A stretch of DNA of 36,344 nt from a virus. Shown in pieces: positions 7,623 through 35,312 of this stretch. The first letter of the stretch is position 1. Each line of letters starts with the position of its first letter. The notes below the pieces were generated by a model. That model saw only the letters and a list, made by a program, of their open reading frames with translations. It made no database searches and was not told the origin of the DNA. The stretch covers positions 1-36,344 of the IMG/VR virus record IMGVR_UViG_3300017751_000074. One strand, 5' to 3'. Both the position numbers and the translations under genes were made by a program.

Positions 7623-8001
7623 TATCAATTACCTTTTCATTATCATCGCCCCGCAGCATTTTTTGTAACTCTGCTGTGGAACCTACAAATACATTTTGTG
7701 TAAGAGATTTGGTATCATCACCGATATTACCTTTAGTTTGAGTAACATTAATCTCTTGGTGTTTTTTATGCATTGCTAATAGTGCATGTGCATTATCAGC
7801 TTGTTGTTTAATCATCCCTGTCAAGACTTCAATAGCACGGGGATGTTCAGACTCTTCTGCCAAGTCTTGTGCCATTCTCAGACCTTCTTCACCTGAGTGC
7901 AGAAGAGACCTAAGAGTAGAACGAATAAGGTCTAGGTCTTCATCATAACTAGAATGAACACTCTCAGGAATATCTCTCTTTGGCACAATACTACTAGTCA
8001 T
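7588..8001 (-). CDS. 16: gp16 terminase small subunit
   Basis: This is the DNA-recognition and regulatory partner of gp17. The 137 residues compare with 164 in T4. The protein is largely helical. A central heptad-like region includes LRMAQDLAEESEHPRAIEVL and TGMIKQQADNAHALLAMHKK, the central helical-hairpin region that in T4 gp16 mediates oligomerisation, followed by a polar tail. The ATG shares one base with the gp15 stop (TAATG), and its 3' end overlaps the DUF2061 gene. Placement directly before gp17 is the normal T4 order, apart from the inserted membrane protein. Confidence 0.9.
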   Translation of the reverse strand: MTSSIVPKRDIPESVHSSYDEDLDLIRSTLRSLLHSGEEGLRMAQDLAEESEHPRAIEVLTGMIKQQADNAHALLAMHKKHQEINVTQTKGNIGDDTKSLTQNVFVGSTAELQKMLRGDDNEKVIDNVYDRTDQRNI

Positions 8002-8807
8002 TATACACTGTCCCCTTCACCCGGAATAATAAATGTTTCAGTAAATCCATAGTCACTATCAGGACTTACATTCAAAGGATTGGGTTCAATAATAATGCGT
8101 TCAAACAAGTTGTCTGAATCTGTAAGACTGTAAGAACCTACAGTTGGAATGTCTGGATCACGGAAGTCAACAATAGCCTTACGGATGATAGAACTATCTG
8201 CAATCGGACCATAGAAGTTAGTTTTGATTTCAAAGTCTAATGTATATATGATAGTTCTTCTGTTCTCTAATGAACCTTCATAATCATCACTAAAAGAAAT
8301 ACCAATCAAAGAAATAGGAATATCTTCTTTGATATTAGGATAATCACTAAACTGTTTCATAGTAATAGTAAAGGTAGGATTGAAGAAAGGTATAATCTGC
8401 TCAAGTATTTGAACAGCATCTTCATTTGTCTTTGCCAGAATATTCAATTGAAAGTTTAGAATATAGGGAACAGCAGTAAAGAACTTAGTCTTTTTATTGT
8501 TATCTGAAACAACAGTTTCTGTAAAGTTATTTGTTTTAGGTAATTGTCTAGTAGGATCAAAGTAAAGAGACGACATTTCAAATCCCATTCTAGGGAGTTT
8601 GATTGCTAATTTCTCATCAGTCAAATCTCCTGTTTCACGAATACGATCCAAGAACTTTTGTTTTGGAGAGTAACTTAGTGGGACTTTGATTTGACTGATA
8701 GCACTACCACTAGAGTCTTTACGAACCAAGTAAATATTATTAAATAGTGTTCCAAATACAGCTACGCATTTACGAATCTTTTCATGGTAGAAGTGCTGAT
8801 TTAGCAT
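8001..8807 (-). CDS. 15: gp15 tail terminator / sheath stabiliser
   Basis: This protein forms the hexameric ring that caps tube and sheath and joins tail to neck. Its 268 residues nearly equal T4 gp15 (272). It starts MLNQHFYHEKIRKCVAVFGT, a characteristic opening of the family, followed by LFNNIYLVRKD. Later come IKVPLSYSPKQKFLDRI near residue 40 and, after residue 110, FTAVPYILNFQLNILAKTNE followed by DAVQILEQIIPFFNP; these are well conserved in cyanophage gp15. The gene follows gp14 after one base and overlaps gp16 by one base. Confidence 0.95.
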   Translation of the reverse strand: MLNQHFYHEKIRKCVAVFGTLFNNIYLVRKDSSGSAISQIKVPLSYSPKQKFLDRIRETGDLTDEKLAIKLPRMGFEMSSLYFDPTRQLPKTNNFTETVVSDNNKKTKFFTAVPYILNFQLNILAKTNEDAVQILEQIIPFFNPTFTITMKQFSDYPNIKEDIPISLIGISFSDDYEGSLENRRTIIYTLDFEIKTNFYGPIADSSIIRKAIVDFRDPDIPTVGSYSLTDSDNLFERIIIEPNPLNVSPDSDYGFTETFIIPGEGDSV

Positions 8808-8808
8808 T

Positions 8809-9705
8809 TTATGTCACCTCTCCAAACGGATTACCTTCACTAAAGTCAATAATATTATCACCTTCAGTTTCAAAGATATCATTTTGTTGTGTTACTTGAA
8901 TTTGATTATTTTCTCTGGTAGAAATTACAGTGTAAGATGCACTATCGGTGCCAAGACCAGTTGAGAAGATGTTCGAAACACTACCCGTTGTAAAGACATG
9001 ATACTTACCATCATCTGCTCCAAGATGGACAAGTGATATTTCATTGGAACTATCATTCCACTTAGCAATCTCAGCAGAGAGTGTAACGTTGTTAGCAAGA
9101 CTTTGCTGGATAGTTGTGCCTATTTGTAATGCATCACTATCATAGGCACTATCAAATAGAGTCAGGATATACTGGTAAGCATAGTCCTGTTCAATCTGAT
9201 CAATCTGTGCAATGTCAGTATCAAAGTCTTCATCATTGTATTCAAACAGTTCAATCTCTATACGGAATGTTGGAAGATTAGATAACTGATAGAATGGTTG
9301 ATCATCAATCACTCGCATGATTTCAAAGATTTGATTTGATAATGGAAGGAAGATCAAGTCACCTTCATTTGGTCTGCTCTGTGAAGATGAATGGTCAAAG
9401 GCAACTTCTTGCCATCTACGTCTAGAAACATGAAGTGTAGCTCTGTCTCTGATTTCTACACCAAACTTACTAAAGAGTTCTTGGTCTCCATCAAAGTTAT
9501 CAATGTTTTCCAGATACATTTCAATCTGGTAAGCATCTTCAAACTTAGATGCAACATCTTCACCAAAGATTTTATCTTCTGCTACAAGTGTTCTAGGCAT
9601 ATAGAATATATCTTGCCCATACATCTTGAGAGATTCGATAACAATATTTTCGTATAAATCTTGTTCTGATTTTACTGATTGACTAAAGTAAAGATTAGTT
9701 GCCAT
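8809..9705 (-). CDS. 14: gp14 neck protein
   Basis: With gp13 this closes the filled head and makes the site for tail attachment. The 298 residues compare with 256 in T4. The opening YFSQSVKSEQDLYENIVIES followed by LKMYGQDIFYMPR is the typical gp14 signature. The segment FSKFGVEIRDRATLHVSRRR followed by W is also conserved, and PNEGDLIFLPLSNQIFEIM matches the core. The last 100 residues, with SLVHLGADDGKYHVFTTG, are less conserved and may form an added beta domain, explaining the extra length. It lies between gp13 and gp15 with spacers of six bases and one base. Confidence 0.95.
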   Translation of the reverse strand: MATNLYFSQSVKSEQDLYENIVIESLKMYGQDIFYMPRTLVAEDKIFGEDVASKFEDAYQIEMYLENIDNFDGDQELFSKFGVEIRDRATLHVSRRRWQEVAFDHSSSQSRPNEGDLIFLPLSNQIFEIMRVIDDQPFYQLSNLPTFRIEIELFEYNDEDFDTDIAQIDQIEQDYAYQYILTLFDSAYDSDALQIGTTIQQSLANNVTLSAEIAKWNDSSNEISLVHLGADDGKYHVFTTGSVSNIFSTGLGTDSASYTVISTRENNQIQVTQQNDIFETEGDNIIDFSEGNPFGEVT

Positions 9706-9711
9706 TATACC

Positions 9712-10464
9712 CTATCCTACAAAAAAGTCAACAGGCAACTCATATGTATTACGCAGTTTATCTTCTAACCGCAACATTTCCTGAGTAGCATCATCATACA
9801 ACTGTCTACCATTTAAGGTAACACCACCCGGAAGTTGCACACCTTCAAACTTGATTAGGTTTGCTCCCCACTGCTGTTTGATAGCCTGTGTAAGATATTC
9901 TTTTACAAACAAATCATTATATACATCTGTATGAGTTTCAGGGTCTACAGTCTTGAATGTTTCAAAGACAATATACTCACCTTCAATAATATCCTGTTCT
10001 GCAAACTTACCGTGAATGTATACTCTGTTCTGGTGTCTATTAAAGTCAATATGTGGATAACCAGTCAGCTGAGCATCTAACAAGGCAAGATATTGTTTGG
10101 TCTGCTCATAGTAGGCGAGATCACCAATATAGGTATTCAAATCATAGATATCATTCAAGGACATTTGATACTTAATATCAAACATTCCAGCAGAGTTACC
10201 TGAACCTTTTACCATAAACAGTTTCTTAATATAGATGATACTATCGTCTACAGTAATATAACCATTAGTAATATCAGTAGATGTTACTTGATGTTTGAGG
10301 AAAGTTCTGACTACTGCATCAGAATGATACTCCTGATACAACTGGAGTGTATCATCAGTTCTATCTTCTAACTGATCAATATCTACGTTGATTTCAATGA
10401 CAGGTGCGCCAAGTCTTCTTAGACAGTGATCTATGAGTTGGTCTCTTGTACTTGGTTTGGCCAT
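9712..10464 (-). CDS. 13: gp13 neck protein (head completion)
   Basis: This is the head-completion protein that binds the portal after packaging. Its 250 residues are shorter than T4 gp13 (309). Family features are the start TRDQLIDHCLRRLGAPVIEI, then INVDIDQLEDRTDDTLQLYQ and EYHSDAV, all within the first 50 residues. Further on come YITVDDSIIYIKKLF and, near the end, LFVKEYLTQAIKQQWGANLI followed by KFEGVQLPGGVTLNG. It is the first gene of the neck/terminase operon, 32 bases after a GATAAATA late-promoter variant, with an AAGGAAAAG ribosome site. Confidence 0.95.
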   Translation of the reverse strand: MAKPSTRDQLIDHCLRRLGAPVIEINVDIDQLEDRTDDTLQLYQEYHSDAVVRTFLKHQVTSTDITNGYITVDDSIIYIKKLFMVKGSGNSAGMFDIKYQMSLNDIYDLNTYIGDLAYYEQTKQYLALLDAQLTGYPHIDFNRHQNRVYIHGKFAEQDIIEGEYIVFETFKTVDPETHTDVYNDLFVKEYLTQAIKQQWGANLIKFEGVQLPGGVTLNGRQLYDDATQEMLRLEDKLRNTYELPVDFFVG

Positions 10465-10495: not shown

Positions 10496-10503
10496 TATTT
10501 ATC
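10496..10503 (-). promoter_or_regulatory. Variant T4-type late promoter for gp13-gp17
   Basis: The minus strand reads GATAAATA, one base off the T4 late octamer, followed by TATAATAAATG. It ends 32 bases before the gp13 ATG and overlaps the stop of the upstream 128-residue gene. The same variant recurs at 34410-34403 at the same distance (33 bases), which supports use. Such variants are generally weaker in T4. Confidence 0.65.
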
Positions 10504-10888
10504 AATCTGAAGAGTCTAGACTAGAATCAACTAGTGGTGCATTAGCACGATCGGAATCACTCATTGCTAGCCATGCATCATCTGCACCGGGTACTTTATA
10601 TGGAGATGGAATTCCACCACTACCTTTAGTATTGACCAAGAAGATTTGTGAACTGTCAAGAAGTTCATTCAAAACTGGTTTGTCATAGCACTTTACGAAA
10701 ACCCATGCCTCTCCAGAATCACCTACAAATGATCTTCCAATATCAAAACCGCTTCTAGCATAAGTCATAGCTTGCTTTTTAACGGATTTATTATTTCTTC
10801 GCATGGCATACATATACTCTTTTCGAGTAGCAGTATTCATACTTCCTTGCGCAATTTCTTTTAATTCTTGCGTTAGTGTGAGAGACAT
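10502..10888 (-). CDS. Unidentified small protein at the end of the fibre cluster
   Basis: I do not recognise this 128-residue protein. The first 50 residues are basic and probably helical (KEIAQGSMNTATRKEYMYAM, then RRNNKSVKKQAMTYAR). A compact section follows with DIGRSFVGDSGEAWVFVKCY and LLDSSQIFLVN. The end is Ser/Asp-rich (DSSLDSSD). No signal peptide or membrane segment is seen. An AGGAG ribosome site lies ten bases before the ATG. It is the last gene of a three-gene unit after the DUF6065-like copy A and a Gly-rich protein, just before gp13. It could be a virion component or an assembly factor for those proteins, but nothing in the sequence decides this. Confidence 0.7.
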   Translation of the reverse strand: MSLTLTQELKEIAQGSMNTATRKEYMYAMRRNNKSVKKQAMTYARSGFDIGRSFVGDSGEAWVFVKCYDKPVLNELLDSSQIFLVNTKGSGGIPSPYKVPGADDAWLAMSDSDRANAPLVDSSLDSSD

Positions 10889-10916: not shown

Positions 10917-12662
10917 TTATACTGGTGTAATCGTATCACCAGCACGACTTCTAATGATAACTTGCTTGAGTTCATCGCCACCCGGACCATATCCTCTTAC
11001 ATCATTTGGATCAGTAGCACCTACTGTAGAGTTGCCATTTGAATCTATATATGGAGAATTAGTAATAGTGGACTGTAATGCAGTTCCAATAGAGTTTGTA
11101 AATACTCCAAATACTGTCAATCTACCAGAACCAATTGTTATAGAATCTAATTGTCCTAATGCAGATATTACATCACTATCTGTTCCTCTATTAGAACGTG
11201 CAGTCAGAATACCAGTAGCAGAATCTCCGGTCAATAATACATCATTAAATGGATTTATATCAACTCCTGAATAACTAATTGGTCCTAGATATGACAAAGA
11301 GACTGTAGATGCTGTTCCAGAATCACCATCAGCCCCTCCAGAATCGCCACCTATACCACCTACACCACCTGTAAGAGTAATAGTAGAACCTTCAGATACA
11401 GCAACAGAGTTGATCCATGATAGACCACCGCCACCACCGCCACCACCAGCATTAGAACCGTTAGAACCACCTGAACCGCCACCCGGACCAATAGCAACCA
11501 TACTAACTGAGTCTACACCCGCAGGAATAGTAAAAGTAGTAGGACTAGTAGTAGTTGTTGTAGATATCGTAGGAGTCCAAGTAGCTGTACCATCAGAAGA
11601 ACCTCGGTTAGTTGCACTAGTACCAGAGCCGCTAGAAATATTACCGCCGGTCGCATCAGCAATAGTAAACGTGATAACGTGGTCCCCTGATCCATCAGCG
11701 GCTGCTGAATATGTTGCTGTACAGTTACTAGTAGAACTTACATCACTTGCCAATTGAGAAGCGCTGTATGTTACTGTGCTAGGTATTCTAAAGACGGTGA
11801 TACCCGAAGCACCATTACCACCAGCAGAGTAGTCGCCACCACCGCCACCACCACCGGAACCAGTGTGGGCTAAAGCGTCACCGGCATATGTACCATTGCC
11901 AGATGCAATCGTGCCATTACCAGCACCGCCTCCGCCGTTGGTTCCTACCCAGCTATATCCAGATAAAAATTGGCCTCCGCCGCCGCCACCAGCTCTTGCT
12001 ACAGAAGCACCAGTGATCGAAGAAGTTCTGGATGCTCCGCCTCTAGCATTCTGATATCCAGTCTGGCCTGCGCCACCTGCACCGCCACCACCGCCACCGA
12101 CATAAGGATTGCCAGTTGAACCAGAAGCGCCACCAGCATGTCCTTCGTCGGTTAACGAATGTGCAGTGGCTGAAAGTGTGGCGCTCGCACCGCCAGACGA
12201 ACCGCCTTGAGCATCGGTGGCGGTACTCTGCTCATCATTACCGCCGGCACCAAAACCACCACCGTCAACTGATACAGTAGTAATATCAGATCCAGAAATA
12301 GAAGTATCATTACCTTTAGTTACACCGGATACACCTCGATGGCCATCAAACCCGTATCGCCCGCCCCGTCCTACAGTTACAAAATAGTCAGTACCGGCGT
12401 TTAAAGTTAGAGCGGTTTTTAATGTTCCGGGAGTACCACCAGACAATTCTGAACCAGATCCAGCCCAAGAAGTTTTATAACCGCCAGCACCACCGCCACC
12501 AGCATGTCTACCACCAGCGCCACCACCACCGCCAATAAGAAGAAAGTCCGTAGTAGCAGATGTTGTGGTTGTAGAACCTCCAGAAGATAGCAGAATTACC
12601 TCGCTGTAACCATCGGTTGCGAGTTGTGCAGAATCAGCATTTGATGGAAACGAAACGGCCAT
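10917..12662 (-). CDS. Glycine-rich putative adhesin, copy 1
   Basis: This 581-residue protein has two long Gly-rich blocks. The first (about residues 40-305) opens TTDFLLIGGGGGAGG and continues with GGGGAGG-type runs broken by aromatic and Asn residues. The second (about 390-470) opens with FTIPAGVDSVSMVAIGPGGG, a common lead-in of bacterial and phage Gly-rich domains, reading roughly F-x-x-P-A-G-V-x-x-V-x-x-x-x-x-G-G-G. Between them is a Thr/Ser-rich beta segment. The last 110 residues are not Gly-rich. Glycine lacks the Gly-X-Y periodicity of collagen, so a polyglycine-helix bundle like that of the phage S16 gp38 adhesin is the more likely fold (inference). It follows DUF6065-like copy A by six bases and is probably a receptor-binding virion protein. 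Confidence 0.75.
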   Translation of the reverse strand: MAVSFPSNADSAQLATDGYSEVILLSSGGSTTTTSATTDFLLIGGGGGAGGRHAGGGGAGGYKTSWAGSGSELSGGTPGTLKTALTLNAGTDYFVTVGRGGRYGFDGHRGVSGVTKGNDTSISGSDITTVSVDGGGFGAGGNDEQSTATDAQGGSSGGASATLSATAHSLTDEGHAGGASGSTGNPYVGGGGGGAGGAGQTGYQNARGGASRTSSITGASVARAGGGGGGQFLSGYSWVGTNGGGGAGNGTIASGNGTYAGDALAHTGSGGGGGGGDYSAGGNGASGITVFRIPSTVTYSASQLASDVSSTSNCTATYSAAADGSGDHVITFTIADATGGNISSGSGTSATNRGSSDGTATWTPTISTTTTTSPTTFTIPAGVDSVSMVAIGPGGGSGGSNGSNAGGGGGGGGLSWINSVAVSEGSTITLTGGVGGIGGDSGGADGDSGTASTVSLSYLGPISYSGVDINPFNDVLLTGDSATGILTARSNRGTDSDVISALGQLDSITIGSGRLTVFGVFTNSIGTALQSTITNSPYIDSNGNSTVGATDPNDVRGYGPGGDELKQVIIRSRAGDTITPV

Positions 12663-12668
12663 CTATCT

Positions 12669-13436
12669 TTACTTCTCCAAAGTGATCTTTTTCTCTACAA
12701 TGTGGTCACGATACCAAGAAAAATTGCCAGCTACAAGGTCGTGGTCAATATTCTCTTTTTTCCATTCTAAAGAACTAGCATTCTTAACATTTACTTTACT
12801 ATATACATCTTCTCTTTTAAAAGGAATAACCTGAATAATAGGGTCACCTCTTTTAATATAAAACTCATACTCTTGTTCATTATTAGGATTCAAAATCCTA
12901 AACGGAAAGTTAATAACATTTTGATAATTATCGGTATCAACTACACCACTAAAGCATTCGAAGTATTTATTGCCAGAATTAATAGGACTTACAAACAAAC
13001 ATGAATAACCTTCACGGGTATTAATCTTCCAAGGATTATTAAACTTTAATGCCAATCCCCGAAATGGACCTTGCCCCAATTGTTTAGAATCATGTTCAGA
13101 AAGAAGTTCAACAGTATTACCTGCTAAGTTAATCTGTGATCTAGTTTCTTTAATATAAGCATGACCTGAATTACCTACCTTAATATACATATCAGCAGGA
13201 GCAGGAATAGTATATCCTATTCTCATAGCATCTAGAAAAGGAACACACTTACGAACAGTATCTAACTTCCTAGCTGGCATTGCTACATGCATACCTTCAT
13301 CAGTTTGTTCTTTCATCTTCTTGATCCAATCAGGAAGAAACTTACGAGAGTTATCTGGACTTGGAATGTAACTAAACGCAGGGTCAGTTGATACAAACTC
13401 AATCAATGGTTCTTTTTTCTTAAATAGGTTAAACAT
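12669..13436 (-). CDS. DUF6065-like protein, copy A
   Basis: This 255-residue protein is a paralogue of the next gene to the right (copy B). Shared elements are FLPDWIKKMK near residue 33, CVPFLDAMRIGYTIPAPADM near 64-83, NPWKINTREGYSCLF near 134-148, ECFSGVVDTD near 160-169, and then NFPFRILNP and GDPIIQVIPFKRE. The order W-x-I-P-x-P..., N-P-W-x-I-x-T-x-x-G-Y, G-V-V-x-T-D, G-x-P-I-x-x-x-x-P resembles the DUF6065 family of unknown function. I see no metal-binding HxD...H pair, signal peptide or membrane helix. It has its own consensus late promoter 43 bases upstream and is followed six bases later by Gly-rich copy 1. No role is known; service to the Gly-rich partner is a guess from context. 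Confidence 0.78.
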   Translation of the reverse strand: MFNLFKKKEPLIEFVSTDPAFSYIPSPDNSRKFLPDWIKKMKEQTDEGMHVAMPARKLDTVRKCVPFLDAMRIGYTIPAPADMYIKVGNSGHAYIKETRSQINLAGNTVELLSEHDSKQLGQGPFRGLALKFNNPWKINTREGYSCLFVSPINSGNKYFECFSGVVDTDNYQNVINFPFRILNPNNEQEYEFYIKRGDPIIQVIPFKREDVYSKVNVKNASSLEWKKENIDHDLVAGNFSWYRDHIVEKKITLEK

Positions 13437-13478
13437 TATATATTCCTAAGTTAATATTTTCACTACATAATTTTTGAA

Positions 13479-13486
13479 TATTTATA
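13479..13486 (-). promoter_or_regulatory. T4-type late promoter between the two DUF6065-like genes
   Basis: The minus strand reads TATAAATA, followed by TTCAAAAATTATG, 43 bases before the copy A start. It lies in the 50-base spacer just at the end of copy B. It places the two paralogues in separate transcription units, copy B at the end of the upstream unit and copy A at the head of the next. Confidence 0.85.
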
Positions 13487-14224
13487 TTAAGATTTGACAT
13501 CATGAATTTTTTCTTTATAATAGTGGTAATTGCTTGTCACTTGAATGTGGTCTTTTACATCATTATCTGTCAAGTCTCTTACAGGTAATTCCCCAAAAGA
13601 CTCTTTTCTCTTAATAGGAAAGAATTGAATAATTGGATGACCTGCTTTAATCATAAAATTATATGATTCTTTATTATCTGGATTTAAAACTCTAAATGGA
13701 AAATTTACCAAATTAGAATACTTATCAGTATCTACTACTCCAGCAAAACATTCTATGTAAGACTTCCCATGATTTACAGGATTAATAAACATTGTACTAT
13801 ATCCAGTCCTTGTCGTAATTTTCCAAGGATTGATAAACTTTAAAATTGGGGAATTTGCGTAAAGATTATTTTTACCTACTTGCTGCTGATTATGTTGCTC
13901 GATAGGCGGATTAGCTATACCCCGTGATACTTCAATTTGATTTCTAAATTCATAATTTACTTTTTTGCCATAATTTTCAACTTCAAAATAAACATCCCAA
14001 GGAGCTGGAATAATCCAACCTACAGACATAGCATCCATAAAAGGCATGCACGCTCTTACAGATTGACTAGGATACATTTTATTTGAATTTTCTTTTGACA
14101 TATTAAACTTTACTGTTTTAATCCAATTAGGCAAAAAGTTTTTAGATTGATTTGGAACATCAAAGAGATTGCGATTCATTTTTGTTGCACTAACTTCAAT
14201 CAAAGGTTTTTTGTTGAAAAACAT
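13487..14224 (-). CDS. DUF6065-like protein, copy B
   Basis: This 245-residue paralogue of copy A keeps the same order of motifs: FLPNWIKTVK near residue 30, CMPFMDAMSVGWIIPAPWDV near 59-78, NPWKITTRTGYSTMF, ECFAGVVDTDKY, NFPFRVLNP and GHPIIQFFPIKRK. By eye, roughly two residues in five are identical over the core, with the amino end and last 30 residues divergent, so this is an old duplication rather than a recent one. Its DNA is more AT-rich than the Gly-rich gene it follows, from which it is separated by 12 bases with a GAGG ribosome site. It is the last gene before the promoter of copy A. Function is unknown. Confidence 0.78.
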   Translation of the reverse strand: MFFNKKPLIEVSATKMNRNLFDVPNQSKNFLPNWIKTVKFNMSKENSNKMYPSQSVRACMPFMDAMSVGWIIPAPWDVYFEVENYGKKVNYEFRNQIEVSRGIANPPIEQHNQQQVGKNNLYANSPILKFINPWKITTRTGYSTMFINPVNHGKSYIECFAGVVDTDKYSNLVNFPFRVLNPDNKESYNFMIKAGHPIIQFFPIKRKESFGELPVRDLTDNDVKDHIQVTSNYHYYKEKIHDVKS

Positions 14225-14236
14225 TATATTTCCTCA

Positions 14237-15889
14237 TTACGATAAAGTGTAGGTCGTAGTTCCTGAAGAACTAATCACTGTTCTAGTTCTATTAGACCCA
14301 GTTGGAGTCTTATATATAATTCTCACTGCACCTGTTGCACCACCAACTCCAGTGCTTGTTTCTGAAGAACCAGCAGAACCACCACCACCACCAAATCTAC
14401 CAGATGAACCTAAACCAAGACTAGGACTTGCTTGGCCAAGATCATCCGGTTCTTCAAAAAAGATTGTACCATCCAGGCCTGGATTGCCAGCTCCAGTAGT
14501 AACTCCAGAACCACCTATACCTATATTGCTAGAATTGAAGTTAGTTAAACTAAGTGATGTTGATGTGCTTCCTACTGTCCAACCAGTAGGCACGAGGCTT
14601 GAACCACCGCCACCACCAGAACCATACTGACTTGCCCCTCCGGACCCGGCGCCACCGCCGCCACCGCCGTAGTAACCACCACCACCGCCACCAGCACCAC
14701 CAGCATTAGAACTAGTTGGTACAGCACCATTACCACCGCTTAGTGAACTACCAGCTAAACCAGTAACAGCATTACCTACACCTCCTGCGCCTCCAGCGTT
14801 TTGTGTACCACCTTGTCCAGCATTAGTATGGTTTACAGCAGCCACACCAGCAGACCCATTAGTGGATGCATCACCACCAGATTGAGAAGTGGTATTAGTA
14901 AATTGGTCAGTACCACCTTGCCCACCGCCGCCACCAGCAATTGCAAGGTACTCAGAATTGGTGTTTGAGTAGATATAAGTAAGTCCACCCCCTGCACCAC
15001 CTGAATATGACGCACTACCTCCACCTCGTCCACCAGTACTTGCATTAGTGTCAGATGAAGTAACATTAGCTTGTGACCCAATGTTACCGGCCGCAGGACC
15101 ACCTAATCCAATTTTTACAGTAATACTATTATGATTACTTAGGTCAAGTGTTCCATGCATATATGCACCATTACCACCTGTCCCTGTATTAGCAGGCGCA
15201 CCTACATACCCAGAACCGCCGCCACCTGCACCAAACATATAAACATATGTGGTAGTATAACTAGAAACATCAATCGTTGTGCCAGTGTTACCACCATGAG
15301 TAGTAAATCCAGATGAATAAGTAGCAGAATATGCTGATATTTCCGGTTCAAAAACACCATCACTATCAGCAAACCCGTCTACGCCACCTTGCCAGTCACT
15401 ATCACCAAAAGCAAAAGCCCCGCCTCCAGCAGTATTAGCACCTCCACCTGATCCAGATGATCCTACACCTGAACCATAGAGTCCGGTGCCACCTCCACCC
15501 AATAGAAGTTTACCTGTGGAATATCCACCTCCGCCGCCTCCATTAGAGGTTGTTCCTGCTGTGGTTCCTGTTCCTCCGGCACCGCCTGTTCCAGCAAAAC
15601 CAGCAGCTCCGCCGCCACCAGCGCCATTAGTAGATGATCCACCTGCTCCACCTGCACCGCCAGAATAAGCAGCGCCTGTTCCTAATGAATTATCAAAGGA
15701 AGCATTTCCACCTACACCAGCAGTTCCAGATGCAGTTCCTCCTGCACCTGAGTGTGCTACTAGGAGAGTAGTGGAAGATAAAGAACCAATTTCTGGTTGT
15801 GTATACCTAGCATTCTGCTGTGCAGCAGTTTCATTCTCAGTATAGAGAATGGAAAATGGAACGTTATCTGAGTCAAAAAGAATTCCCAT
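14237..15889 (-). CDS. Glycine-rich putative adhesin, copy 2 (ALK/LTK-like Gly-rich domain)
   Basis: This 550-residue protein is dominated by glycine. Residues 30-170 are runs such as GGAGGAGG. From about residue 195 it follows the pattern of the Pfam Gly_rich domain seen in ALK/LTK receptors and many bacterial surface proteins: TTYVYMFGAGGGGSGY, then GAYMHGTLDLSNHNSITVKI-GLGG, GGRGGGSASYSGG, and EYLAIAGGGGGQGG near 315, followed by an Asn/Ala/Gly block and GGGGGGYYGGGGGGAGSGG near 405. It ends SNRTRTVISSSGTTTYTLS. In ALK this domain forms polyglycine helices (established knowledge). The gene lies between the 923-residue orphan and DUF6065-like copy B, and shares only composition with Gly-rich copy 1. 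A receptor-binding role is inferred. Confidence 0.77.
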   Translation of the reverse strand: MGILFDSDNVPFSILYTENETAAQQNARYTQPEIGSLSSTTLLVAHSGAGGTASGTAGVGGNASFDNSLGTGAAYSGGAGGAGGSSTNGAGGGGAAGFAGTGGAGGTGTTAGTTSNGGGGGGYSTGKLLLGGGGTGLYGSGVGSSGSGGGANTAGGGAFAFGDSDWQGGVDGFADSDGVFEPEISAYSATYSSGFTTHGGNTGTTIDVSSYTTTYVYMFGAGGGGSGYVGAPANTGTGGNGAYMHGTLDLSNHNSITVKIGLGGPAAGNIGSQANVTSSDTNASTGGRGGGSASYSGGAGGGLTYIYSNTNSEYLAIAGGGGGQGGTDQFTNTTSQSGGDASTNGSAGVAAVNHTNAGQGGTQNAGGAGGVGNAVTGLAGSSLSGGNGAVPTSSNAGGAGGGGGGYYGGGGGGAGSGGASQYGSGGGGGSSLVPTGWTVGSTSTSLSLTNFNSSNIGIGGSGVTTGAGNPGLDGTIFFEEPDDLGQASPSLGLGSSGRFGGGGGSAGSSETSTGVGGATGAVRIIYKTPTGSNRTRTVISSSGTTTYTLS

Positions 15890-15902: not shown

Positions 15903-18674
15903 CTACTTCTTCAGCAACAATGCAGCTTGAGTATGGTTCATCGGAACAACCCAATGTTCTACTGAATTTGTAGGATTGACTGCATAGAAACCATCATCAT
16001 CAGTTTGAATTGATACTGCATCAAGGAAATTATACTTATGATGCTTATATGGACCAAAGATTTTTAACCCGTATGTTCTACCTAGCATAGCAAATGCTGA
16101 TAACTTTTTATCTGTTCCGCCCGGATTTCCAGCTTCAATAATACTAGCAAAATTTTGTGTGTTGAAATTAGCATTATTATTTGCAAACCACGCATTCGCA
16201 TCATTTGTTTCACTTAAGTTGGCGGAAAAACCTGCTGTGTTTGCAGTCGTGGCTCCAAACTTACTATACATTCCACCAGCTGTCATTTTCATATTTCCTA
16301 CAGAAAGGATTGGTTCGTAAACAGAATAGTTTACTTGCTGTTCAGGAGTAGGATGAAATTCTTGGAACGAGTGTCTATCACTATCTCCAGAAGCAACTAA
16401 TGTATTACCATCATTAGAGTCGAGCATATTAGCTACCATAGGAATACCCGGACCATAAGATACTATCTTATGAACATCAGATTTTCCGGGAATATGTTCT
16501 GACAAAGAACCGATAGGTTGAAGACCTTTGTTATCTCCAAACATACCATGTCTAGAACCATAGAATACTTCATTCAAAGAATAACAGGTTTGAGCATTAA
16601 GATGCCCTACATATCCCATCCAACCCATATGAAGTCTTGTAGAAGAAAGATACTGTCTACCTGATTGTGGAGTTCCATATGCATCATGCTTATTAATAGA
16701 CTCAGCAGTTTCTAATTTACGTTGATCTGTATTACCAGAACCTCTAGGAGTTGATCCAGTTCCTAAAACTCTAGTTGGGTATTCAGTAAGCATAAACTGC
16801 GCACCGTCTGCACCATACCAGTGAAGTTCTTGACCTAATTCTGCACCATCACCAATCGCAACTGCTCCATTTGTTGCAGTATTCCATCCAGCATAAGTTG
16901 ATCCACCATAAGTGTTATTCTTTGAAACATTTTCAGTTTCTGTATTACCGCTAAAAGTTCTTACTATGAAGTTACCTAAGTTTTTGTCTCTAACATTAGA
17001 ATGGGATGAGTTAGAAGCAACACCCGCAGATGACAGTGATGTATTATGAGTAGAACTACTTGGTCCCATCATGATATTTCCAGAAATCTCAATTCTAGGA
17101 CGAGTCCCATCTACAACATCTGTAACAGTATGACCCAAATCTAATAAACTAGAACCATCACCTTTTTCTCCATATTCATCGTTTTGTTCGAAATCATGGT
17201 AAAACCCGTGATCAGCACGACGGTTAGCAGTATTAGCCATATCAACATAGCCGTTGGAGAACAAATTAACAGTGCTAATAAAGTTACCAAAGTTAGTGAG
17301 GGCATTACTAGTCGCAATTGTGCCAGCTGTATTTCTATATGTTGTGCCGTGCTGCATCACGGTAAGGGCCCTATGGGTATTCTGAGTGTTAGAAGACAGG
17401 TGAGAGACGTTGCCAGCGGTGTTGATGGTGCCGTCGCTTATTGAGTAAAAGTCAGCTGAATTAAACGAGTTTGGTGTTGCCATACCATTATTCATCAGCA
17501 AACTATGGGCATTAAACTTAACACCATTATGAATAAATTCATTTGTAGGAGCAGCTTCACCAAACTCTTTCTTATATTCAGATACCATCATTACTGTATT
17601 ATAAGGAGAGTTTAATTCAGGGTCTTGATCTTGTGCCTGATTTACAAACATAGCAAGATATCGAGCCTGCGCACCTTCAGAGTCTACACCTCTAAAGTTA
17701 TCTGTTCCATGTGAAGAGTCTACATTAGTGCTTACATTATCACCATCACCAAACATCCAAAGTGTAAAGTTTCCGTCAATGTTGAATGTAAGTTCGTTAA
17801 ACTGGTTTTTATAACTTAGGTCTTTATGTCCAAATCCTGTCTGTGCATATCTATCATAGTAGATATCATACAGCATAGCGTTTCCTCTAGGAAGAACCCC
17901 ATTTGCAGACTCAGTTGAAGCAATAATAGGTGAGTTACCATCCGCAGAAGTGTTGCCGTTTGCGGCTACTAATTTATTTAACTTACTAGTATTACCACCA
18001 AAACGAGTGCCATTCCAAATCTCAGATTGTGCTTCATATGCCAAAGAACCGTCTGTCTTACCATATCCATCAGCATCTGCCATGTTAATACCACCATTAA
18101 TTGCAGCAGAATCGACAAAGGCACTTGTTGAATCTAACATATTACCTAATACGGTAGAATTCCAGTCAGAGAACATATCCCATCTCATCACCAAAACATT
18201 GTCAGAAGATGTGTATCTTGGGTCTCTAGCAGTATCATCAAATTCATTATCTAAAAGAGTTTTCTCATCTCGTTCAAAGAGTTTAAGTCTCAGATATTTG
18301 TAGTTTTCATTTGAATCACCTGAAGTTCTTGGTGAAGTTCCATAATCGTAACATCTTGCTCTTAAGAACCCATAAACTGCACTATCATTATATCCAGCTG
18401 GATCAGCAATAATATCCGCAGAGGTTCCTACATTTTTAGAACCGCCATAGATACCGTCAAAACGTTCCCATCCAAGGGGTCTTGTTTTAGGATTAGATGC
18501 AGTGTCATCAATTTCAGTAGAAATTGCTCTCTGAATGATGTGCATCAAATCTTTTTTATCTTGAAGGGTAGCAGTTCCAGTTAGAGCGCCACCACCTGAC
18601 GGAGTAGTATCAATTTTAGCATTGATATACTTCACGTTATCACTTAAGTTAAAGGTGGAGGATAAAATTGACAT
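15903..18674 (-). CDS. Large unidentified virion-type protein (923 residues)
   Basis: I cannot assign this 923-residue protein to a family. It is rich in Asn, Asp, Ser, Gly and Tyr, nearly free of Cys, and has no signal peptide or membrane helix, which fits a beta-rich extracellular virion protein. Stretches worth searching are RPLGWERFDGIYGGSKNVGT near residue 65, LRARCYDYGTSP near 103, VLVMRWDMFSDW near 159, FNIDGNFTLWMFGDGDN near 295, and the end AMLGRTYGLKIFGPYKHHKY with SVEHWVVPMNHTQAALLLKK. The carboxyl 100 residues resemble the compact end domains of marine phage structural proteins. It is second in the unit driven by the 19287 promoter and sits before Gly-rich copy 2. A host-recognition or tail-decoration role is inferred from position. 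Confidence 0.72.
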   Translation of the reverse strand: MSILSSTFNLSDNVKYINAKIDTTPSGGGALTGTATLQDKKDLMHIIQRAISTEIDDTASNPKTRPLGWERFDGIYGGSKNVGTSADIIADPAGYNDSAVYGFLRARCYDYGTSPRTSGDSNENYKYLRLKLFERDEKTLLDNEFDDTARDPRYTSSDNVLVMRWDMFSDWNSTVLGNMLDSTSAFVDSAAINGGINMADADGYGKTDGSLAYEAQSEIWNGTRFGGNTSKLNKLVAANGNTSADGNSPIIASTESANGVLPRGNAMLYDIYYDRYAQTGFGHKDLSYKNQFNELTFNIDGNFTLWMFGDGDNVSTNVDSSHGTDNFRGVDSEGAQARYLAMFVNQAQDQDPELNSPYNTVMMVSEYKKEFGEAAPTNEFIHNGVKFNAHSLLMNNGMATPNSFNSADFYSISDGTINTAGNVSHLSSNTQNTHRALTVMQHGTTYRNTAGTIATSNALTNFGNFISTVNLFSNGYVDMANTANRRADHGFYHDFEQNDEYGEKGDGSSLLDLGHTVTDVVDGTRPRIEISGNIMMGPSSSTHNTSLSSAGVASNSSHSNVRDKNLGNFIVRTFSGNTETENVSKNNTYGGSTYAGWNTATNGAVAIGDGAELGQELHWYGADGAQFMLTEYPTRVLGTGSTPRGSGNTDQRKLETAESINKHDAYGTPQSGRQYLSSTRLHMGWMGYVGHLNAQTCYSLNEVFYGSRHGMFGDNKGLQPIGSLSEHIPGKSDVHKIVSYGPGIPMVANMLDSNDGNTLVASGDSDRHSFQEFHPTPEQQVNYSVYEPILSVGNMKMTAGGMYSKFGATTANTAGFSANLSETNDANAWFANNNANFNTQNFASIIEAGNPGGTDKKLSAFAMLGRTYGLKIFGPYKHHKYNFLDAVSIQTDDDGFYAVNPTNSVEHWVVPMNHTQAALLLKK

Positions 18675-18693
18675 TATTTCTAACCTTTTATTA

Positions 18694-19239
18694 TTATGTT
18701 GAGTAGAATATTTCTACTGTTAAATCTTGGTGAGTAGTGCTACTATTGATATTATTAATATCCATTCTAATAGTATCACTAGAAGTTACTGAAGTTGCAG
18801 TAGCAAACGCTGAAGAAAATGTTGTCTGCCCTGTAGGAATTGTAAATGTTTCTAATGGTGTTCCATTTTTATTTATCTCAAAAACAATATCACCATTACC
18901 TGCTGCTCCTAATGTAGCATCTAATCTTTTAATAGTAATTGTAGATTGTGGAGAATATGTAGATGTTCCTGTTCCTACTGCAAACTGTCCAGGCTGGACA
19001 ATAGCAAATGCGTCCAACTCTTCAATAGCAGGAAGAAACTCTGTTCCGTTCCAAATCTCTAATCTATTTTGGGAAGTATCAAAGAATAATTCACCTGAGT
19101 CAGCACCAGCAGAAACACTAGGTGCGCCATTGGACGAATCCATAGATGCTTTAATTCTTGTAATGCCAGAACCATTACCTGCAATAGTTCCGCCGACTTG
19201 TAAGCCATTTTTGACTTTAAAGTCCTGATCATTCGCCAA
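18694..19239 (-). CDS. Small fibre-type protein (181 residues)
   Basis: The amino end DFKVKNGLQVGGTIAGNGSG is the short beta repeat typical of marine T4-like tail fibre proteins. Residues 40-75 contain SGELFFDTSQNRLEIWNGTE, another common fibre motif. The last 85 residues (FTIPTGQTTFSSAFATATSV, ending VEIFYST) look like a small beta-sandwich. The start is a TTG (19239-19237) seven bases after GGAGA; no in-frame ATG is better placed. It is the first gene after a consensus late promoter 41 bases upstream and is followed by the 923-residue protein. It is probably a virion protein attached to fibre or baseplate; its exact role is unknown. Confidence 0.78.
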   Translation of the reverse strand: MANDQDFKVKNGLQVGGTIAGNGSGITRIKASMDSSNGAPSVSAGADSGELFFDTSQNRLEIWNGTEFLPAIEELDAFAIVQPGQFAVGTGTSTYSPQSTITIKRLDATLGAAGNGDIVFEINKNGTPLETFTIPTGQTTFSSAFATATSVTSSDTIRMDINNINSSTTHQDLTVEIFYST

Positions 19240-19279
19240 GGTTCACTCTCCCCAATAGGCACATATTCGATTATATCTT

Positions 19280-19287
19280 TATTTATA
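19280..19287 (-). promoter_or_regulatory. T4-type late promoter for the 181-residue / 923-residue / Gly-rich copy 2 / copy B unit
   Basis: TATAAATA on the minus strand, followed by AAGATATAATCG, 41 bases before the TTG start of the small fibre-type gene. It lies in the spacer just before the stop of the 1017-residue fibre gene. Exact match to the T4 octamer. Confidence 0.85.
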
Positions 19288-19291
19288 CAAA

Positions 19292-22200
19292 TTAATCAAT
19301 CAATAATAATTTCATAACTTTAAATGTAGTTGGATTAGTTGATACTGGAGTTGCTAATAATCTTACATTTCCACCATTAATATCTACGTCATAGGTTGCT
19401 AACGCAGAACTAGTTGCTACCTGACCATATTCTGTTGCCACAGCTGTTGTGCCGTTGTGTGTAATAAGAAGTTCACTAATATATCTATTAGACTCATCTT
19501 TAGCGGTAACTACTAACTTAGCACCAGAGAAAGTAGCAGCAGTAAATGTTGCAATAGATGTTTGACTTATAGATGATGTTTGTCCACTATCAGTATCAAT
19601 TGCCATATGACCATTAGCATCTAGTGTAGCAGCAGGAGAAGCAGTGCCGATACCAACCCTGTTGTTTGCAGCATCAACAAAAAGTGTATCAGTGTCTACT
19701 GTTAAATCGCCGTTAATAGTAGCACTATCTGTAGTAATACTACCTGTTACGTCAACACCAGTGCTACTAGTTTCAAACTTCTTAACATTATCATGATATA
19801 ATTCTACAGCCCCATTAACCTTAAATGCTGCCATTTGTTCGCTGTTATTGTACTGCATAATCTTTACAGAACCATTACCACGAAGTCTTAAATCACCAGT
19901 TCCACGATCATCAACATAACTGTGACTACCATCATGGTAAATTTCAAGATCAGCACCAGTACCCATCTTAATCTTAGAATTGTCTGGCATAACAATATTA
20001 TCTGAGTCACTGAAAGTAATATCACCATTGACAGTAATATCACCAGCTACTTCAATACCATCTACTTTAGTCGAAAGCTTATTTGTACCATAGTGAGAAA
20101 GAATTGTTTCACCGGTAGAACCATCGGCTCTAACATATTCAGTTATATCGCCGGCGCCATCATCAGAATAAATGATAACATCATTATCATCTTTTCTCTG
20201 AATAATTTGTAAAGCACCAACATAGTTGTTGATTTGGCTATTAGTGCCATTATGTAAGATTTGAAGGTCAGCGCCAGTACCCATCTTAATCTTGGAATTG
20301 TCTGGCATGACAATATCACCTGTTACTTCAATAGACCTATTAAAGTCCCATCTATCAGTAGCACCATCATATGTAATAGTTGGATTAGATGCGTATGTTC
20401 CTACTGTAATACCAGCTCCAGTTGCTTGAGCTGCATTTATCGCAGAGTCTGCTAGAACAATATTCTTGTCACTGATAGAAAGATTTACAGAATTAATAGT
20501 AGTAGTTGTGCCATTGATCTGAAGGTCGCCTAAGATAACCAATGTTCCAGCACTATCTTCAGGATGTGGATCAATGAACATATTTCCAGAAGAAGTACTG
20601 CTGATAGTATTACCATCAATACGAATATTGTCAATATCTAACTGAGTGAGTCCAGCAAGTGTGGTAGAAGTTGCACCAAGTGCAATATTAGTAGAACCTA
20701 CAGTTAAAGAACTGTTTTCTAATTTAGTATTAGTGATACCACCGTCTTTTACTCTAACTGCACCAGAACCATCAGTAGCAGAAAGTTCAATTGTAGAACC
20801 ATCAACGGTAACTTCAATCTCATCTGCATTAGCAGTGATACCATCACCACCGACAACATTTAATGTTCTGTCAGACGCTATTGTACCACCACCAGTTAAT
20901 CCAGCACCAGCTGTGATACTAACACTAGAATGGTCAATATGTTCGTTTAGAACAAATCCAGAAAGGTTGTCATGAACAATATCGCCATCAGTAGTTGTAA
21001 ACGCACCTGTTCCGTTGTTATAGGTTATTCCAGTTCCACCACTAAACATAGCACGAACATTAGCAGAGTCAATATCAATTGTAACATCAGATGCAATGTT
21101 TCCACCGCCAGTTAAACCCTTACCAGCATTAATATTAACACTAGAATGGTCAATATGTTCGTTTGCAACGAAACCAAAGAAATCATCATGGTTAAAGTAT
21201 GCATAAAGATCAGCAGAGTCAATCTCTACAGTAACAGTATTACCTGAAGCAATAGTATCAATACCAACCCCAGCAGCAATCTCTAAAGAAGAGTCCAAAA
21301 GGTTGATTGAACCTGTTCCAGTCTCTGCTATTGTATTCAATACAGTTGCAACTGTAATTGTTCCTGCACTGTCAACAAAACCAGAACCATCTACAGTAAT
21401 TACAGGAATAGCAGAACCAGAACCATATGTTCCAGCTATTACTGTAGTATTTCTTCTTGTGATATTATTAGCAGAAAGACTATCATCAATAAACAAAGTT
21501 CCTGCCATACTGTCATCTTGGTCAGAACGTAGGAACTGTATACTCTGTAAACCGTCTAAGGTATCAGCGTCAATACCTGTTACAGATTTAATATAATCAG
21601 AATCTGCTCTTGCCCTAACATAGTCAGAATCGACTTTAGAAAGAATGTCGGAATCAACTCTATCGGTTGTGTAGTAGAGGTTTGATGAACCTTCAGAAAG
21701 ACTATCAGTATCAAAAGGAGCCAGACCTAATTGAACCGGGAATGACGCCACATCAGTAGTAAGTGTAATAATACCAGTGATATTATTGAATGACATACTA
21801 TCAACAGTATCACCAAGAGATGTAGTAGGAGTAACAAGACCGATACTATCAACTTGACCAAAACTATCTACGCTGATTACAGGAATTTTGTTAGCAGCAC
21901 CATAGGTTCCTGATACAACTCCACTTGCAGGAGTAGAAAATCTACCTAAACTAGAATTATAACTAATATTTCCTTCAGCTGAAAATAGACTTTTAATACT
22001 AGAAGAATCTAGAGAATTAAGAGCTAAAGTAATAGACGCATCTAAATCATCCAATACTTCACTGAGTGTAGTACCATCAGCATTTGCTAATCCAGAAGGA
22101 TCAATAGAAAAAGTTGTTTCATCACCACTTACACTATCTGCATTGACAATAAAACCATTATTAAGGTTTAGGAATAAACGTGTTCCATCAGCTAAAGATG

Positions 22201-22345
22201 CAAGAACATAACGGTCAGAATCTGGATTGCCGAGATTTGGTTCGGCATTATCAAGACTTAAGAAGTCACTTCTTCTAGTGTCTAAACTAGTTCCACTCTT
22301 AGTCTTTACTCGACCGCTAAGAAGTCTTGAATCATTTTTAGCCAT
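19292..22345 (-). CDS. Long modular tail-fibre-like protein (1017 residues)
   Basis: This virion protein is built from beta-rich repeats. After the amino domain, short DSD-rich repeats (VDSDILSKVDSDYVRARADS) lead into DADTLDGLQSIQFLRSDQDD near residue 255, a well-known fibre module. Next come two copies of NEHIDHSS...AGxGLTGGG separated by 72 residues. A GTTTTINSVNLSISDKNIVL module follows near 610, then two copies of MPDNSKIKMGTGADL with LQILHNG / LEIYHDG. The next repeat is NRVGIGTASPAATLD near 905. The last 90 residues, ending TFKVMKLLLID, form a probable compact tip. The ATG overlaps the stop of the 111-residue gene by eight bases. It is third in the unit starting at 25220. Confidence 0.82.
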   Translation of the reverse strand: MAKNDSRLLSGRVKTKSGTSLDTRRSDFLSLDNAEPNLGNPDSDRYVLASLADGTRLFLNLNNGFIVNADSVSGDETTFSIDPSGLANADGTTLSEVLDDLDASITLALNSLDSSSIKSLFSAEGNISYNSSLGRFSTPASGVVSGTYGAANKIPVISVDSFGQVDSIGLVTPTTSLGDTVDSMSFNNITGIITLTTDVASFPVQLGLAPFDTDSLSEGSSNLYYTTDRVDSDILSKVDSDYVRARADSDYIKSVTGIDADTLDGLQSIQFLRSDQDDSMAGTLFIDDSLSANNITRRNTTVIAGTYGSGSAIPVITVDGSGFVDSAGTITVATVLNTIAETGTGSINLLDSSLEIAAGVGIDTIASGNTVTVEIDSADLYAYFNHDDFFGFVANEHIDHSSVNINAGKGLTGGGNIASDVTIDIDSANVRAMFSGGTGITYNNGTGAFTTTDGDIVHDNLSGFVLNEHIDHSSVSITAGAGLTGGGTIASDRTLNVVGGDGITANADEIEVTVDGSTIELSATDGSGAVRVKDGGITNTKLENSSLTVGSTNIALGATSTTLAGLTQLDIDNIRIDGNTISSTSSGNMFIDPHPEDSAGTLVILGDLQINGTTTTINSVNLSISDKNIVLADSAINAAQATGAGITVGTYASNPTITYDGATDRWDFNRSIEVTGDIVMPDNSKIKMGTGADLQILHNGTNSQINNYVGALQIIQRKDDNDVIIYSDDGAGDITEYVRADGSTGETILSHYGTNKLSTKVDGIEVAGDITVNGDITFSDSDNIVMPDNSKIKMGTGADLEIYHDGSHSYVDDRGTGDLRLRGNGSVKIMQYNNSEQMAAFKVNGAVELYHDNVKKFETSSTGVDVTGSITTDSATINGDLTVDTDTLFVDAANNRVGIGTASPAATLDANGHMAIDTDSGQTSSISQTSIATFTAATFSGAKLVVTAKDESNRYISELLITHNGTTAVATEYGQVATSSALATYDVDINGGNVRLLATPVSTNPTTFKVMKLLLID
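19956..20316 (-). repeat. Two 43-base near-identical direct repeats inside the 1017-residue fibre gene
   Basis: Bases 19956-19998 and 20274-20316 agree at 41 of 43 positions by eye, both differences being synonymous A/G changes. They encode the twice-used segment around MPDNSKIKMGTGADL, 106 codons apart. Such repeats are sites where the fibre could gain or lose a module by recombination. Confidence 0.85.
20921..21164 (-). repeat. 28-base exact direct repeat inside the 1017-residue fibre gene
   Basis: The same 28 bases occur at 20921-20948 and 21137-21164, 216 bases (72 codons) apart. They encode the NEHIDHSSV segment of two adjacent beta modules. Exact identity at DNA level across a coding repeat suggests recent duplication or gene conversion. 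Confidence 0.9.
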
Positions 22346-22673
22346 TGAGCGATTCCAGTATACCCATTACTAGTTTTAATTTATTATCTTTATCAGAAAC
22401 CATTTTAAGTACACCATTTGACTGGATTACCAACTTTCCTACAGAACCATTTGCTGTATCACTAGCAGGAATATCAAACTGATAAAGTAGTTCAACACCT
22501 GTTGCACTAGCAGAATCATGATAGGTAAAGGTCAAGTTAGCATCAGAGTCTGACGCATTAGCAATCTGTGTGGACAATACAATACCAGTATAGTTTGCTG
22601 GTGCAGCATAGATTGTCTGGTTGCTTGTGTCAATAGTTTTTGTTATAGTTTTGAATACATTTAGTTCAGCCAT
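22338..22673 (-). CDS. Small beta-rich virion-type protein (111 residues)
   Basis: This 111-residue protein alternates polar and hydrophobic residues in strands: FKTITKTIDTSNQTIYAAPA, YTGIVLSTQIAN, DANLTFTYHDS, ELLYQFDIPASDTANG, GKLVIQSNGVLKMVS, KLKLVMGILE. It looks like a single beta-sandwich domain, of the sort marine T4-like phages carry between fibre genes. It has no signal peptide or membrane helix. It follows the 815-residue beta-helix gene by two bases and overlaps the next fibre gene by eight, so all three are likely made together and could form one fibre complex (inference). Confidence 0.75.
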   Translation of the reverse strand: MAELNVFKTITKTIDTSNQTIYAAPANYTGIVLSTQIANASDSDANLTFTYHDSASATGVELLYQFDIPASDTANGSVGKLVIQSNGVLKMVSDKDNKLKLVMGILESLNG

Positions 22674-22675
22674 GT

Positions 22676-34499: not shown

Positions 34500-35312
34500 C
34501 TATCTAACATACATCTCAAATCGCATAGTTCTGTCTACCCCAGAATATGTCTTACAACAACCGATAAAATCACCAGCAGAATAAGCAACGTTTGTATTTC
34601 TCCGCCTTGAGTTAAGACCAATGCCACTGTATACATCGTTTGTTCCAGCATATGTCTCATTGTTCCAAGCAAATCCCCATCTAGCTCTTGCACCTGCTTG
34701 TGAGATTGAACTTTCGTCTATATTAAACCCATACTTTCTGTGACCTCCCTGTGCGCTGAATGGTCCTCCCGAATGTCCTGCCCAGCTAGTTACAGCAGCA
34801 TTTTCTAGAAGATATGTATTGTTAGACGTATTGGTAAAATGATTCAATAAGGTTGTTGATGACCCACTATTATAATAATTATTTTCATGCCAAGTCCATG
34901 CACTCAATCCAGAACCTAAAGTTCCTCCAGCTGATACGTCAGGGAATCTTGCCATGATATCAGTTCCTGCAAAATAATTATAACTATTGTATTTTGCATC
35001 ACCGTCATTCAAATTAGTTTCTGTTGGATTGAGCGTATTGTTACTTTCCCAGTAACTTGCGGTATAGTCAAATGTAGTTCCTCTTGTTGCTTTCATAGTC
35101 AACATCCAACCACCACCATCATAACTAGTATTCATTATACAATAAATCTGAGTAGGACCAACAGTAGGAAGATCAATCCAGTAAACTCCATCTGTCGAGC
35201 TCGGAAAATTAGCTAGGATTTGTGCAGCGCTTACACCAGCAGTATCTGATGATAAACCATTTCGAATACCACCGCTGCCAGCAGTCAAAATCATCAATTG
35301 AGTGACACTCAT
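34500..35312 (-). CDS. Fibrinogen/intelectin-like putative adhesin (270 residues)
   Basis: The core follows the opening of fibrinogen-related and intelectin lectin domains: DGVYWIDLP at residues 41-49, QIYCIM at 55-60 and DGGGWMLTMKATRG at 65-78, matching the G-x-Y-x-I...v-y-C-x-M...G-G-G-W-T-L pattern of the family. TFDYTASYWESNNTLNPTET follows at 80-99, then NSYNYFAGTDIMARFPDVSA. The carboxyl end has paired cysteines (FIGCCKTYSG) and finishes RFEMYVR. In animals such domains bind sugars and acetylated groups, so receptor binding is the natural guess. The first 40 residues are Gly/Ser-rich and may be the attachment part. Its ATG overlaps the stop of the 338-residue fibre-like gene by one base. 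Confidence 0.75.
   Translation of the reverse strand: MSVTQLMILTAGSGGIRNGLSSDTAGVSAAQILANFPSSTDGVYWIDLPTVGPTQIYCIMNTSYDGGGWMLTMKATRGTTFDYTASYWESNNTLNPTETNLNDGDAKYNSYNYFAGTDIMARFPDVSAGGTLGSGLSAWTWHENNYYNSGSSTTLLNHFTNTSNNTYLLENAAVTSWAGHSGGPFSAQGGHRKYGFNIDESSISQAGARARWGFAWNNETYAGTNDVYSGIGLNSRRRNTNVAYSAGDFIGCCKTYSGVDRTMRFEMYVR

Follow-up and report, generated by a model that had tools for sequence, protein, structure and literature searches.

What do two genes resembling DUF6065 do between two genes for glycine-rich (Gly-rich) proteins, in the slot that separates the tail-fibre genes of a phage from its neck genes? The question is raised by a 36.3-kb IMG/VR virus contig (IMGVR_UViG_3300017751_000074, positions 1 to 36,344, one strand), hereafter the window. 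Four genes on its minus strand, flanked by fibre-like genes (15903-25123) on one side and the neck genes on the other, encode a Gly-rich protein of 550 amino acids (aa; 14237-15889), DUF-B (245 aa; 13487-14224), DUF-A (255 aa; 12669-13436) and a Gly-rich protein of 581 aa (10917-12662), and homologues of all four are conserved in other contigs. An earlier note on this DNA, here called the original prediction, had given the shared strand and position of these open reading frames (ORFs) and the sizes of the two Gly-rich proteins correctly, and proposed that the DUF proteins serve the Gly-rich proteins as partners, chaperones or virion anchors. The best explanation as a whole, which we favour with moderate confidence, is a different one: DUF-A and DUF-B, as phrog_7084 proteins, would represent a still uncharacterised branch of the trimeric dUTPase superfamily with an altered site, and would be late-expressed accessory enzymes, not adhesin helpers. 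Ordinary dUTPases remove a nucleotide that is harmful to DNA.

DUF-A and DUF-B are indeed diverged DUF6065-like paralogues, as had been noticed, with 43% identity. Both match phrog_7084, a profile annotated as of unknown function, over about 215 residues (E 4.2e-48 for DUF-A and 4.2e-41 for DUF-B). With the Pfam model of DUF6065, PF19541, DUF-B scores 31.4 bits and thus passes the gathering cut-off of 26.6 bits, whereas DUF-A scores 21.0 bits and stays below it. Purifying selection acts on both genes (ratio of nonsynonymous to synonymous substitution rates, dN/dS, about 0.04-0.14, with dS near saturation for the comparisons with the related loci L008 and L011).

About 300 family members were gathered from viral and genome contigs, and a 120-row alignment was built for modelling DUF-A. 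The resulting AlphaFold2 model has a predicted local distance difference test score (pLDDT) of 87.9 and a predicted template modelling score (pTM) of 0.83. When it was compared with the PDB by Foldseek, the best 50 matches listed were all dUTPases (best E 6e-5), and VIA-align likewise paired it with dUTPases of many organisms, with Z up to 10.5; the superposition on 2py4 is 2.8 Å over 117 residues. Among viral structure models, uncharacterised phage proteins were the best matches and dUTP diphosphatases the next. A search of PDB sequences with the family profile found yeast dUTPase alone, at E about 1, and the alignment covers motifs I, III and IV. Profile-profile comparison of the family with 13 dUTPases gave P 5.6e-4, whereas none of five decoy families fell below 0.25, so that the sequence evidence for dUTPase kinship appears weak but specific. 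Taking model and sequence together, we think it almost certain that the predicted dUTPase fold is correct for these proteins, although for DUF-B it is extrapolated from the identity to DUF-A.

The conservation of the active site is only partial. The dUTPase motifs and their roles were taken from published work (PMC3905902, PMC12524310), and column conservation was computed over 176 family representatives. The hairpin aspartates of motif III are kept as G-V-V-D167-T-D169 (D167 in 91% and D169 in 95% of representatives), as is the glutamine of motif IV, G-x-x-I-A-Q in dUTPases (Q202, 97%); these motif III and motif IV residues are present in DUF-A and DUF-B alike. An aromatic residue near the position of the sugar-stacking tyrosine is also kept in the family. 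By contrast, the aspartate of motif I (GYD), which holds magnesium and corresponds to Asp42 in the dUTPase of Mason-Pfizer monkey virus (M-PMV; PMC3905902), is absent: the equivalent position 76 is I, L, M, V or T in the family, with T in DUF-A and I in DUF-B. The Arg-Ser-Gly that follows proline in motif II is replaced by P-x-N-(R) in the family, and by P-I-N-S and P-V-N-H in the window proteins. Motif V, the C-terminal Gly-rich arm (G-G-F-G-S-T-G), is missing from DUF-A, DUF-B and the family consensus. The family has a near-invariant set of its own, comprising W37, K/R62, C64, P66, D69, G74, D82, N153, G197, P199, P205, R208 and Y242. Its conserved polar residues (DUF-A numbering: K/R62, C64, D69, D82, N153, D167, D169, Q202, R208 and Y242) are kept by both window proteins. 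This pattern suggests that the pocket still has its nucleoside half but has lost the grip on the triphosphate.

One reading of the fold is that the DUF proteins are nucleotide-pool enzymes, either divergent dUTPases or dCTP-deaminase-like, which happen to be encoded in a fibre-proximal slot by chance. The retained motif III aspartate and motif IV glutamine fit this reading, and some homologues have suitable company: halovirus homologues lie near genes for thymidylate synthase (HSTV-2) or ribonucleotide reductase (HRTV-5, Serpecor1), and that of cyanophage S-RIM4 lies near both ribonucleotide reductase subunits. However, the magnesium-binding aspartate of motif I, the Arg-Ser of motif II and the whole of motif V are precisely what is absent. 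In each of the five DUF-bearing bacteria that were tested, moreover, an ordinary dUTPase has its own gene, and the halovirus HRTV-5 has a separate dUTPase-family gene besides its DUF gene. Two or three copies of phrog_7084-type genes occur in 38 of 181 viral loci, and the surroundings described below, with tail fibres and oxygenases, are foreign to nucleotide metabolism. We consider a nucleotide-pool role rather unlikely, and it is probable that DUF-A and DUF-B are not ordinary dUTPases.

The neighbours of the family point in another direction. In 98 dereplicated viral loci, with cluster identities taken from Pfam scans of cluster members, the most frequent cluster of 2-oxoglutarate (2OG)-Fe(II) oxygenases occupies the +1 position in 32 of 114 places, versus 32 of 1265 elsewhere (p 7e-20), and a second 2OG cluster is found at +2 in 26 of 117 places. 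Upstream, a 150-aa protein occurs at -1 (25/115 places), for which the Pfam scan gave no match, and a tail-fibre-like protein at -2 (24/114), labelled by its sequence and position, without a Pfam match. Tryptophan halogenases are encoded within 3 genes in 7 of the 98 loci. These components form a stereotyped cassette in L158, L122, L162 and about 25 other viral loci, in which the tail-fibre-like protein, often with a Gly-rich C-end, and the 150-aa family-less protein are accompanied by phrog_7084 and two 2OG-Fe(II) oxygenases of different Pfam types. In cyanophage S-RIM44, tryptophan halogenases and 2OG oxygenases flank the DUF gene between fibre and neck genes. In haloviruses the DUF gene closes the tail block and adjoins a region that varies with host range (PMC7230728).

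Because of this late, fibre-side slot, often shared in relatives with 2OG-Fe(II) oxygenases and sometimes with halogenases, we tentatively take DUF-A and DUF-B to be putative accessory modification enzymes; the chance of this is, in our judgement, a little short of even. As two members of the large phrog_7084 branch, related to DUF6065, they would assemble as trimers and would be late proteins encoded next to the tail-fibre genes, as may hold for many relatives. The retained half-pocket may bind a nucleoside-like or other small ligand, and the chemistry would differ from dUTP hydrolysis. A more specific version holds that phrog_7084/DUF6065 is a hitherto overlooked branch of the dUTPase superfamily and that, with 2OG-Fe(II) oxygenases and halogenases, it makes up a modification cassette, widespread in marine phages and haloarchaeal viruses and linked to their tail fibres, that would chemically alter adhesins or a precursor for their decoration. 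This version is speculative, and we would not expect it to be right.

The inference of late expression comes from a motif, TATAAATA, which is the T4 late promoter consensus. An exact copy lies on the minus strand at 13486-13479, directly after the stop codon of DUF-B and upstream of DUF-A, where a late promoter had been predicted. The minus strand of the window has six copies (at 26959, 25220, 19287, 13486, 5792 and 1741), versus about 2 expected. Although intergenic sequence makes up only about 2.7% of the window, each of the six copies coincides with a gene end or closely follows one, and lies 28-248 bases upstream of the next start codon. Given these positions, it is reasonable to read them as late promoters, and they are probably the late promoters of this contig.

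The promoter also bears on a regulatory or counter-defence role, in which the dUTPase fold would be used for protein binding. Staphylococcal phage dUTPases, whose moonlighting is known (PMC9927489, PMC4914113), bind the Stl repressor, and the many divergent copies per phage genome region would fit such a role. However, no defence or repressor gene was recognised nearby, and the late-promoter position speaks against an early regulator. We regard this role as very unlikely.

The two Gly-rich proteins appear to be a separate matter from the DUF genes. The 581-aa protein (24% Gly) consists of a conserved N-end of about 19 aa, a poly-Gly middle and a conserved C-terminal domain that passes the Pfam model Gly_rich_2 (44.5 bits; cut-off 24.3). 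It also matches phrog_2295 and phrog_4474, and it contains the expected F-x-x-P-A-G-V lead-in, as TFTIPAGV. In relatives its N-end and C-terminal domain stay fixed and the middle varies: it is absent in L004, of another kind in L006 and a Laminin_G_3 lectin domain in L010. The 550-aa protein (29% Gly) likewise has conserved N- and C-ends, and domain swapping is visible in the alignment of relatives: its ends are like those of L004, and its ALK-like middle is 70% identical to that of L011. An ALK-type Gly_rich pattern had been reported for this protein; the pattern can be seen on inspection, yet none of the glycine-rich models in Pfam detects it, with no match at E up to 1 in a search that composition filters weaken. 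The AlphaFold2 model of the 550-aa protein was uninformative as to its fold (pLDDT 35). PDB sequences contained no solved relative of either protein, the sole match being a low-complexity Gly stretch in a transcription factor.

Fixed ends with exchangeable middles give the 581-type protein the look of a receptor-binding protein. The earlier view of both Gly-rich proteins as adhesins thus stands as a putative assignment: they are likely to be two distinct modular receptor-binding proteins, with middles that move from phage to phage. The same view had paired each of them with a DUF gene as two diverged copies of one unit. Such a duplication lacks support and is rejected. The gene order is Gly-DUF-DUF-Gly, not Gly-DUF-Gly-DUF; the two Gly-rich proteins have no clear homology (BLASTP E 40; profile E 0.059 on a short Gly-rich stretch); and close relatives have DUF-A alone.

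Those relatives, which we cite by locus handles, record how the region changed. L003 shares 99.8% identity with the window. In L004, L005 and L006, DUF-A is the sole DUF gene, and TATCGTAATGAGGAAATATAATG, which precedes DUF-B in the window, leads directly into DUF-A, with the promoter and DUF-B missing. The junction has a shared ATATAATGTTT at the start codons in the window and its relatives. Given the direct joining of TATCGTAATGAGGAAATATAATG to DUF-A, DUF-B and the promoter would have been either inserted in the lineage of the window or deleted in that of L004, L005 and L006, at the shared ATATAATGTTT. In a tree, DUF-B groups with its closest relative, L011 (66% identical; support 100/99), outside the DUF-A clade (96/97), which is its sister. 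The DUF-A/DUF-B split is therefore older than the phage group, and a recent duplication within this genome is rejected. A third lineage is found in L284 (283-3172), where a deeply diverged family member, 31% identical to DUF-A, follows an ALK-like Gly-rich gene and precedes a 581-type gene, just before the neck genes; the slot seems to be conserved and its DUF lineage replaced.

Several observations weigh against the explanation that we favour. HMMER finds only weak similarity to dUTPase sequences (E about 1), which does not allow a function to be carried over from dUTPases. In the window itself, no gene for a 2OG oxygenase or a halogenase turned up; the cassette is seen only in relatives. In the phage group of the window, wherever the locus is covered well enough, a DUF6065-type gene lies in the slot between fibre and neck genes together with Gly-rich genes, and this leaves room for a link with adhesins. 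In addition, DUF-B and the L011-type Gly-rich middle occur together in both lineages known, the window and L011 (n=2); a scan for this middle found it, besides the window, only in the contig of L011.

These last points are also arguments for the proposal that the DUF proteins are trimeric beta-proteins that help to fold, cap or anchor the Gly-rich adhesins. The family member of L284, in the same slot after an ALK-like gene, fits as well, and dUTPases are trimeric, as tail fibres typically are. Across the family, however, DUF genes occur mostly without a Gly-rich neighbour (18% Gly or more, within 3 genes): only 19 of 98 loci have one, or 13 of 98 by a stricter poly-Gly criterion, and the enrichment near DUF genes is weak (26/672 near versus 17/707 far, p 0.12). 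A majority of DUF genes without such neighbours is an outcome that the original prediction had itself named as speaking against it. Both 2OG oxygenases and tail fibres are commoner neighbours. A softer link between fibres, Gly-rich sequence and the family does exist in the -2 tail-fibre-like protein, which often has a Gly-rich C-end (46/76 at 15% Gly or more). In the reverse direction, 72 of 73 loci with ALK-like (GGYYGG) Gly-rich genes lack a DUF gene in the stretch covered, which includes three or more downstream genes in 47 of the 73; the sole exception is the contig of L011 itself. In L004, both Gly-rich neighbours are rearranged while DUF-A stays 99% identical. Bacterial chromosomal homologues adjoin TPR or transporter genes, and the conserved polar set on a predicted dUTPase fold resembles a ligand pocket. 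We consider both a role as dedicated partners, chaperones or anchors and a more general one as fibre accessories unlikely.

In many proteobacteria (L046-L108, e.g. L052:5695-7525), the chromosomal homologue has a convergent TPR-repeat neighbour with a conserved GRFFLRPSAxAxFL-like tail. The DUF gene is patchy in one bacterial family, where its presence in only 9 of 41 genomes marks it as accessory. Proteins of the PF19541-proper type (e.g. L438, L439) form a sub-branch distinct from phrog_7084; no functional neighbour was found for two bacterial ones. The Bradyrhizobium genome of L046 (G001; contigs C1, C4 and C11) has two phrog_7084-type genes and one PF19541-proper gene, so both sub-branches exist side by side.

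Nearly all genes of the window are on the minus strand, and they include a T4-like set: prohead protease, portal, tail tube, sheath, terminase, gp15, gp14 and gp13. After gp15 (8001-8807), gp14 (8809-9705) and gp13 (9712-10464; head-tail adaptor Ad2, phrog_211 E 1e-41) comes the four-gene locus, followed by fibre-region and baseplate wedge genes. Between gp13 and the locus, a minus-strand ORF of 128 aa (10502-10888) is conserved in most relatives and belongs to no family. On the other side, a 923-aa fibre-region protein (15903-18674, minus strand) stays beside the locus in relatives, with homologues in L004, L005 and L007-L010; Pfam and PHROG profile searches with it gave no match. No near-identical annotated phage was found. 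In L008, a 439-aa protein with 20% Gly (8772-10091) adjoins DUF-A. One of its domains is 76% identical to the product of window positions 34500-35312 (phrog_1325), near the baseplate genes, which suggests that a baseplate-side protein was joined to a Gly-rich part.

We found no mention of DUF6065 in the literature searched, and nothing relevant that combines the dUTPase fold with phage tails. A family present in hundreds of uncultured phage contigs, dozens of HF1-type haloviruses and some proteobacteria now gains a predicted fold and a testable active site. Its place beside tail-fibre and 2OG oxygenase genes raises the question of why a dUTPase relative travels with receptor-binding genes. The Gly-rich proteins would be a clear case of adhesins made by swapping middles between fixed ends. 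The fold is the more useful outcome: a predicted altered-site branch of the dUTPase superfamily that is commonly found beside tail-fibre and 2OG-oxygenase genes.

Three known systems can be compared with the locus. Phage S16 gp38-type polyglycine adhesins resemble the window proteins in being Gly-rich, encoded in the tail-fibre region, and conserved at the ends with a variable middle, although the window proteins have no sequence match to any solved polyglycine structure. Trimeric dUTPases (PF00692), such as those of Mycobacterium tuberculosis, E. coli and yeast, share with DUF-A the predicted all-beta fold (residues ~9-222, Z about 10), and with both DUF proteins the hairpin Asp of motif III (G-V-V-D-T-D) and motif IV (G-x-P-x-x-Q), and a further likeness is the Tyr/Phe of the DUF proteins, one residue beyond the dUTPase tyrosine position. 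Unlike them, the DUF proteins are not matched by the PF00692 model and lack the motif I Asp, the motif II Arg-Ser and motif V, and DUF-A is longer (about 255 versus about 150 aa), with an extra N-terminal region containing K-x-C-x-P-F-x-D. A parallel in genomic position comes from the DUF6065-type genes of haloarchaeal viruses (HF1, HF2, HRTV-5 gp36, HSTV-2 gp40), which are 30-34% identical over most of their length. Unlike those in the window, each is single-copy and convergent to the tail genes, with no Gly-rich neighbour noted, but it too lies where the tail genes end, beside the host-range-variable region (PMC7230728).

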